Origin: Stappia sp. ES.058
Lineage (GTDB): Bacteria > Pseudomonadota > Alphaproteobacteria > Rhizobiales > Stappiaceae
Length of the DNA stretch: 64,000 nt
Reading direction: 5' to 3'
Assembly: GCF_900105595.1 (NCBI RefSeq)
Contig: NZ_LT629784.1
Coordinates: forward strand, 310,001 to 374,000
Position numbers and translations under genes: made by a program
Notes under the pieces: model-generated
What the model was told of the DNA's origin: nothing
Seen by the model: the letters and a program-made list of their open reading frames with translations, nothing else
Database searches by the model: none
Shown: positions 43,996 to 44,461 of the stretch, piece after piece
Layout: the number at the start of each line of letters is the position of its first letter
How positions within the stretch are numbered: the first letter of the stretch is position 1

Positions 43996-44461
43996 CTGAA
44001 ACTGCCTTTCGGCGGCTTCAGCGTTCTGGGTGATGGGCTGGCTTTGGACTTGTTGGAGGTCCATGCCGCCATCTGAAACCGCCAGTTGGCGGTTTCATCA
44101 GGTCTTTGGGATGGGCTGGCTTTGGACTTGTTGGAAGTCCATGCCGCCATCTGAAACCGCCAGTTGGCGGTTTCATCAGGTCTTTGGGATGGGCTGGCTT
44201 TGGACTTGTTGGAAGTCCATGCCGCCATCTGAAACTGCCTTTCGGCGGCTTCAGCGTTCTGGGTGATGGGCTGGCTTTGGACTTGTTGGAGGTCCATGCC
44301 GCCATCTGAAACCGCCAGTTGGCGGTTTCATCAGGTCTTTGGGATGGGCTGGCTTTGGACTTGTTGGAAGTCCATGCCGCCATCTGAAACCGCCAGTTGG
44401 CGGTTTCATCAGGTCTTTGGGATGGGCTGGCTTTGGACTTCTTAGAAGTCCATGCCGCCCA
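43996..44461 (-). repeat. Nested tandem array derived from the groEL 3' end
   Basis: Six head-to-tail units: B1 43996-44072 (77 bp), A1 44073-44150, A2 44151-44228 (78 bp each), B2 44229-44305 (77), A3 44306-44383 (78), A4 44384 to about 44461, which runs into the groEL end. They form two B-A-A blocks of 233 bp. Read on the minus strand, each unit carries GGCGGCATGGACTTC, the last five groEL codons, then AAAGCCAGCCCATC and a hairpin. In A units the stem is GAAACCGCC/GGCGGTTTC with an AACT loop; in B units GAAGCCGCC/GGCAGTTTC with a GAAA loop. Outside A4 the stop codon TAA has become CAA. A1, A2 and A3 read as identical, as do B1 and B2. Confidence 0.95.

Follow-up and report, generated by a model that had tools for sequence, protein, structure and literature searches.

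The window, i.e., the whole stretch of 64,000 nucleotides analyzed here, belongs to the one-contig genome of Stappia sp. ES.058 (Stappiaceae, Hyphomicrobiales; hereafter the family and the order). On its minus strand, groEL is directly followed by a tandem array of six units, a terminator-like hairpin, and a gene of the SlyX family (Table 1). Upstream of groES, at 46596-46622, there is a CIRCE-like inverted repeat, which fits a groESL operon. The stop codon of groEL is the loop of a palindrome, GGACTTC-TAA-GAAGTCC, and a second hairpin (H) often comes next, followed by a copy of the gene's tail. Hereafter, A designates the coding arm of the stop hairpin, A' its downstream arm, and A2 the next copy of A.

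In the sense of groEL, the units start at positions 44459, 44381, 44303, 44226, 44148, and 44070, each with GGCGGCATGGAC, and every one of them begins at the last five groEL codons. Counted from the gene, their order is A-A-B-A-A-B. An earlier note on this DNA, made from the plus strand, had described six units as B-A-A twice and derived them from the 3' end of groEL; both the count and the derivation hold. Tandem repeat (TRF) analysis gave a period of 78 (5.5 copies, 92% matches) and another of 233 (2.0 copies, 99% matches). The two 233-bp blocks are mismatched at only four positions, two of them at the change from TAAG to CAAC, in agreement with the proposal that the array is young or kept uniform. 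The replacement of TAA by CAA, which the note attributed to each unit, is found in five copies, while the first unit is the groEL end itself and keeps TAA. The UUCG terminator described behind the array exists as a hairpin with a TTCG loop, and the T-run that follows it is weak (GTTTCGTTT). In the copies of the array, the closing pair of the stop hairpin has been lost (TAAG to CAAC), and the type B units, which read GGACCTC, have an imperfect H, as expected under weak constraint. A frame of 115 amino acids spans the array without any match in Pfam, and a reading of the array as protein was set aside.

Table 1. Features of the groEL 3' region, in positions of the window
Feature	Position	Strand	Basis
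groEL, 546 aa, source of the repeated 3' end	44442..46082	-	ORF; Pfam PF00118 (Cpn60), E 3.7e-81
groEL stop codon TAA	44442-44444	-	sequence, ORF
Stop-codon hairpin, ATGGGCGGCATGGACTTC - TAA - GAAGTCCAAAGCCAGCCCAT, stop as 3-nt loop	44422..44462	-	first hairpin of the minimum-energy fold; also in relatives
Unit 1, type A, true groEL end with TAA, 78 bp	44382..44459	-	sequence
Hairpin H of unit 1, TGAAACCGCC-AACT-GGCGGTTTCA	44385..44408	-	sequence
Unit 2, type A, 78 bp, CAA in place of TAA	44304..44381	-	sequence
Unit 3, type B, 77 bp, GGACCTC CAA	44227..44303	-	sequence
Hairpin of unit 3, GAAA loop, one G-U and one C-A mispair	44229-44254	-	by eye
Unit 4, type A, 78 bp, CAA	44149..44226	-	sequence
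Unit 5, type A, 78 bp, CAA	44071..44148	-	sequence
Unit 6, type B, ~75 bp, divergent beyond the hairpin	43996..44070	-	sequence
Hairpin of unit 6	43996-44021	-	sequence
First 233-bp block (units 1-3)	44229..44461	-	4 differences from second block
Second 233-bp block (units 4-6)	43996..44228	-	sequence, TRF
Terminator-like hairpin, GGGCGGCC-TTCG-GGCCGCCC	43923..43942	-	sequence, RNA fold
SlyX family gene, 70 aa, next codirectional gene after the array	43620..43832	-	Pfam PF04102, E 3.2e-19

Copy number and location of the units

The array is confirmed as real in this genome of 4,626,154 bases, where it occurs once and where its hairpin pattern was found nowhere else with up to three mismatches. 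In the 14 genomes of the genus, the units are located at groEL, with a single weak off-locus match (E 0.03); extra tail copies are absent from eight of these genomes, five have one, and this genome has five. The GroEL of one relative (G011) is 98% identical to that of the window. Clean pairs of empty and filled sites could be identified, L024 (none) versus L025 (one) and L012 (none) versus L006 (one), the former two loci being sisters in a groEL tree of 25 genomes of the family. Along this tree, extra copies range from 0 to 5, and 12 of the 25 genomes have none (up to 3 mismatches in 15 were allowed over 600 bases, so some matches may be due to chance, and L007 probably has one copy rather than two). 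The copy label (none, one, or two or more) changes 10 times, versus 10.7 for shuffled labels, i.e., there is no phylogenetic signal in copy number. Given this, together with the 12 genomes without any extra copy, having additional units cannot be a necessity.

In at least 27 of 87 genomes of the family, two or more palindromes (up to three mismatches) were found in the 300 bp that follow groEL, a lower bound since L010 and L076 carry copies that the pattern missed. Two unit lengths recur, ca. 75 to 78 bp and ca. 118 to 126 bp (the latter with the terminator inside), along with other spacings such as 108 and 252 bp. Several Roseibium-like genomes have degraded second copies. At three loci from three genera (L005, L070, and L076), the loop of the copy reads CAAGC, replacing the stop codon and the closing pair. 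Another variation was seen in G012 (L010, match on the minus strand), whose groEL stop hairpin has a different palindrome (GCATTTTCC...GAAAATGC) inserted into its TAA loop, with CTAA on both flanks.

The array is not private to this strain, and the element from which it is built was found across the order. A strict tail-spacer-tail pattern was present in 17 of 297 evenly drawn genomes of the order (four from the family, this genome included), and its reversed control gave no match in the same 297. All 20 places reported for the pattern are loci in which it lies behind a GroEL reading frame; in G152, G209, and G233, this is a second copy of groEL. The same layout appears, among the matches listed, in Mesorhizobium, Aminobacter, Pannonibacter, Pseudochrobactrum, Acuticoccus, and Oryzibacter, and the order A-A'-H-A2 is common to several genera. 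The only plasmid record with a match is a groEL of Aminobacter sp. SR38, which includes a stretch matching the groEL end and the first unit; phage records gave no match. A covariance model (25 rows) searched over 387 genomes of the class matched only in this genome and G109; with ten candidates scored per genome and few of the genomes shown belonging to the order, absence elsewhere in this search is weak evidence. No tail copy was detected behind any of 470 other genes taken from the window and 80 named loci (those given as loci among at least 117 stretches); the 22 groELs of this survey had mostly been brought in by the palindrome pattern, so the 470 genes are its sole control.

These comparisons include some of the checks that the earlier note had proposed. 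Copy number does differ between close relatives, the unit is present in other genera, at groEL, and in the genomes searched the units are not scattered independently of this gene, a situation that would have contradicted their derivation from it. What the note missed is the wider occurrence of the unit: the array is the expansion of an order-wide element built on a palindrome that encloses the groEL stop.

The hairpin around the groEL stop codon

A perfect stem of at least 5 bp around the stop was found in 51 of 84 groELs from the order outside the family, when shuffling of the downstream sequence predicts 7.6 and sliding of the position predicts 10.4. Each of these groELs comes from a different genome (84 of 191), most of them standing high in a ranking by similarity to the GroEL of the window, a choice blind to the feature but leaning to groELs of this kind. 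In 24 genomes outside the family, the stem was present in 13 groEL and only 3 groES genes. Stems of this size were found in 6 of 44 long frames of the window and in 58 of the 470 other genes. A copy of the tail (up to 4 mismatches in 18) followed 14 of the 84 groELs, while shuffled tails gave 4 in 2,200 trials and reversed tails 0 in 110. At L247, L271, and L297, A2 shares the unusual codons of A.

Outside the order, the stem was present in 17 of 27 groELs and the tail copy in just one (the 27 come from the 30 best-scoring loci of 67 genomes, leaving out this genome, one member of the order, L339, and one that was too short, L359). Different lineages have different loops in their stop hairpins (GGACTTCTAAGTCC, TGGACTTCTAGTCCA, GCATGATGTAATCATGC, and TATGGATTTCTAATCCATA). 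The stop hairpin is a deeper feature than the duplication of the tail. The wider finding behind this array is therefore a hairpin at the groEL stop codon that is widespread and whose tail has been duplicated recurrently.

Several loci depart from the common layout. At L342 (G308, outside the Hyphomicrobiales), a tail copy lies 12 nt behind the groEL stop. L238, L262, and L284 (family f43), whose groELs end in GGMM, have long tail duplications in which the post-stop sequence is also repeated behind the copy, and the copy retains the ATGATG ending. At L179 (Brucella daejeonensis), an extra stretch, partly palindromic by eye, separates the stop hairpin from the next part of the element.

Pairing and covariation

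The RNA predicted from positions 43921-44462 folds with a minimum free energy of -259.8 kcal/mol, compared to a mean of -172.8 for dinucleotide shuffles (z -14.5; 0 of 100 as low). The minimum-energy fold includes the A-A' hairpin in all six units, and several arms of H pair across neighboring units. We analyzed compensatory changes in an alignment of 25 of 33 units, drawn from 74 rows, after leaving out L076, L119, L191, L234, L243, L247, L256, and L271 for their long loops or odd spacing. In these 25 chosen rows, H has double changes at all of its 11 pairs, with 88.6% of cells paired, and the inner helix of the stop hairpin has 99.1% of cells paired. Such compensatory changes across species suggest a structured RNA element, with a cause at the DNA level also possible.

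The synonymous choice of the last aspartate codon of groEL also varies with the downstream arm. In the sample of the order, the stop is followed by GTCC in 41 of the 54 GAC tails, versus none of the 5 GAT tails (P = 0.002). The equivalent differences for ATCC (3 of 5 GAT versus 9 of 54 GAC tails; P = 0.052) and GCCC (3 of 9 GGC versus 8 of 54 GAC tails; P = 0.18) were not significant in this sample, and with the full set of loci, part of which had been selected with the pattern, each of the three arm tests gave P < 0.002. At the places that distinguish A from A2, A' complements A in 27 cases, A2 in 4, and neither in 3, a count that favors A because the arm was placed by its fit to A (a few rows, e.g., L013 and L289, are perhaps chance copies). 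At L159 and L185, the two hairpins diverge as separate pairs. The stop hairpin was more stable than the alternative A'-A2 fold in 25 of 25 rows, having been given 18 pairs versus 15.

Mispairs were also counted, on the mRNA strand, in 49 units from which L013, L018, and L020 were dropped, having no strong H by the script (H is bulged in L018 and L020; L029 was included, although its match, at the terminator, is probably due to chance). H had 13 G-U mispairs, 2 A-C, and 4 others, and the stop hairpin had 7 G-U and 7 A-C. The bias of H points to RNA. In the stop hairpin, however, both types are equally frequent, which does not point to RNA, and its pairing may reflect either selection on RNA or the perfecting of palindromes at the DNA level.

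Comparison with known elements and possible explanations

Several known kinds of sequence resemble the array in part. Bacterial minisatellites are tandem repeats with variable copy number, and here too there are head-to-tail units of ca. 78 bp whose number varies between relatives; unlike them, the unit contains two hairpins, starts within the coding region upstream, and is tied to one gene throughout the order. Structured 3' UTR elements and intrinsic terminators place hairpins between the stop codon and the terminator, as seen here together with compensatory changes, but the first hairpin of groEL encloses the stop and has a coding arm, and neither of the two hairpins is followed by a T-run. 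An Rfam search of positions 43500-47000 (E ≤ 1) gave three matches, all far below the gathering score, and those to suhB and BASRCI337, at the terminator, were rejected for that weakness. Genomic islands at gene 3' ends duplicate the end of their target gene, as happens here. In contrast to islands, the insert measures only ca. 75 to 125 bp, which is too short for an integrase gene, and no distant second end was seen in 87 genomes of the family (the contig breaks there in G097). groEL has been sequenced very widely, and our search of the open full-text literature, with subscription papers outside its scope, gave no title or abstract start on a groEL stop-codon hairpin or tandem tail copies. 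As described in PMC3733652 and PMC3116915, REP, BIME, and REPIN sequences are short noncoding hairpin units in tandem clusters, with proposed roles in mRNA stabilization and termination, and most REPs, not all, carry GTAG or CGTC as a tag at the foot of the hairpin (PMC3733652). The array shares with the sequences described there the hairpin units, the tandem clustering, and the proposed effect on mRNA, but those are dispersed in high copy, whereas it is found at one locus and starts in the coding end of its host gene. On visual inspection, the window's units lack this tag, and no match to the RAYT/Y1 transposase (PF01797) was found in this genome, with 5 of 14 control genomes having one. A dispersed repeat of the REP kind was ruled out by the single locus and the lack of this transposase.

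We consider it fairly probable that a hairpin element of the groEL 3' end in the Hyphomicrobiales, labile by slippage and probably protecting the 3' end of the mRNA, is present here as a copy-number allele that has expanded into the array. The main rival is a neutral minisatellite, in which the groEL 3' end is simply prone to slippage while template switching and conversion perfect the palindromes in DNA, without selection. We give this explanation a modest chance of being right. It would account for a labile copy number without phylogenetic signal, for the degraded second copies of the Roseibium-like genomes, for the equal G-U and A-C mispairs of the stop hairpin, and for the loss of a pair and the stop in the copies of the window. 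It does not predict the confinement to groEL, with no tail copy in any of the 470 other genes, nor a stop palindrome that is frequent outside the order (17 of 27), where the tail copy is nearly absent (1 of 27), and that has been reached via different sequences. That each of the 11 pairs in H has double changes, with an excess of G-U over A-C mispairs (13 versus 2), also speaks against it.

The A-A'-H-A2 order seen across genera would also allow A' to pair with either A or A2. A ribosome on A would then favor A'-A2, and this switch would report the translation of groEL to decay or termination. Both folds are possible and are supported by the same 25 rows, and A2 repeats the unusual codons of A at the three loci mentioned above. 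Even so, we regard the switch as quite improbable. In every row, the stop hairpin has the higher stability of the two folds (partly from the larger number of pairs given to it), and A' tracks A instead of A2 at 27 of 31 informative places, a placement that favors A; besides, A2 is unlike A at L123, L148, L149, L152, L159, and L185, among others, and many relatives lack A2. As the main fold, A'-A2 was therefore rejected, being possible yet less stable and less well tracked than A-A'. A bolder extension would make the alphaproteobacterial groEL stop hairpin a translation-coupled device, with the tail repeats as alternative arm partners, ribosome occupancy setting either the stability of the groESL message or its 3' end, and the number of copies tuning it, something to which we concede only a small chance. 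A small mobile element or attachment site, inserting at the groEL stop and restoring the end of the gene in the manner of integrative elements at tRNA genes, would explain the clean difference of one unit between empty and filled sites, the rebuilt gene end, and the unit at a plasmid groEL. But away from groEL there was only one weak match in the genomes searched, and in 87 genomes of the family no distant second palindrome appeared on the same contig with up to two mismatches (three-mismatch matches exist, e.g., in G084 and G088, and G097 splits into two contigs there). Neither a phage match nor a Y1 transposase in the genome was found, and variants of the host groEL tail recur in the copy (L247, L271, and L297), which fits duplication in place. 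Insertion of a mobile element or island is disfavored and seems highly improbable.

In the preferred reading of an expanded hairpin element, the basic unit consists of A (the last groEL codons), the stop in the loop, and A' just behind, then a spacer, H (ca. 11 bp, with a sequence free to vary), and often A2, with or without its own A'. Replication slippage or unequal recombination between direct repeats holding strong palindromes would change the number of units, which conversion would keep alike when adjacent. Removal of the segment between A and A2 would delete H as well, so the persistence of the element across the order needs something besides slippage. In this strain, a copy already changed to CAAC would have been amplified, by duplication of the unit and then, in a second round, by doubling of the 233-bp A-A-B block, resulting in six units. 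The function of the element is inferred; a role of the array hairpins at the mRNA end is plausible. Within the groESL mRNA, they would most probably be a barrier to 3'-to-5' decay, placed upstream of the terminator and effective after the last ribosome leaves, and for that reason the extra units would be redundant or mildly stabilizing.

If the hairpin works in RNA, the message of an essential chaperonin would have a 3' element that has been overlooked and that offers natural alleles of different copy number for study. If it has no function in RNA, the groEL 3' end would still provide a natural system to study the duplication and loss of palindromes, and how complementarity is kept, at one site across a whole order.
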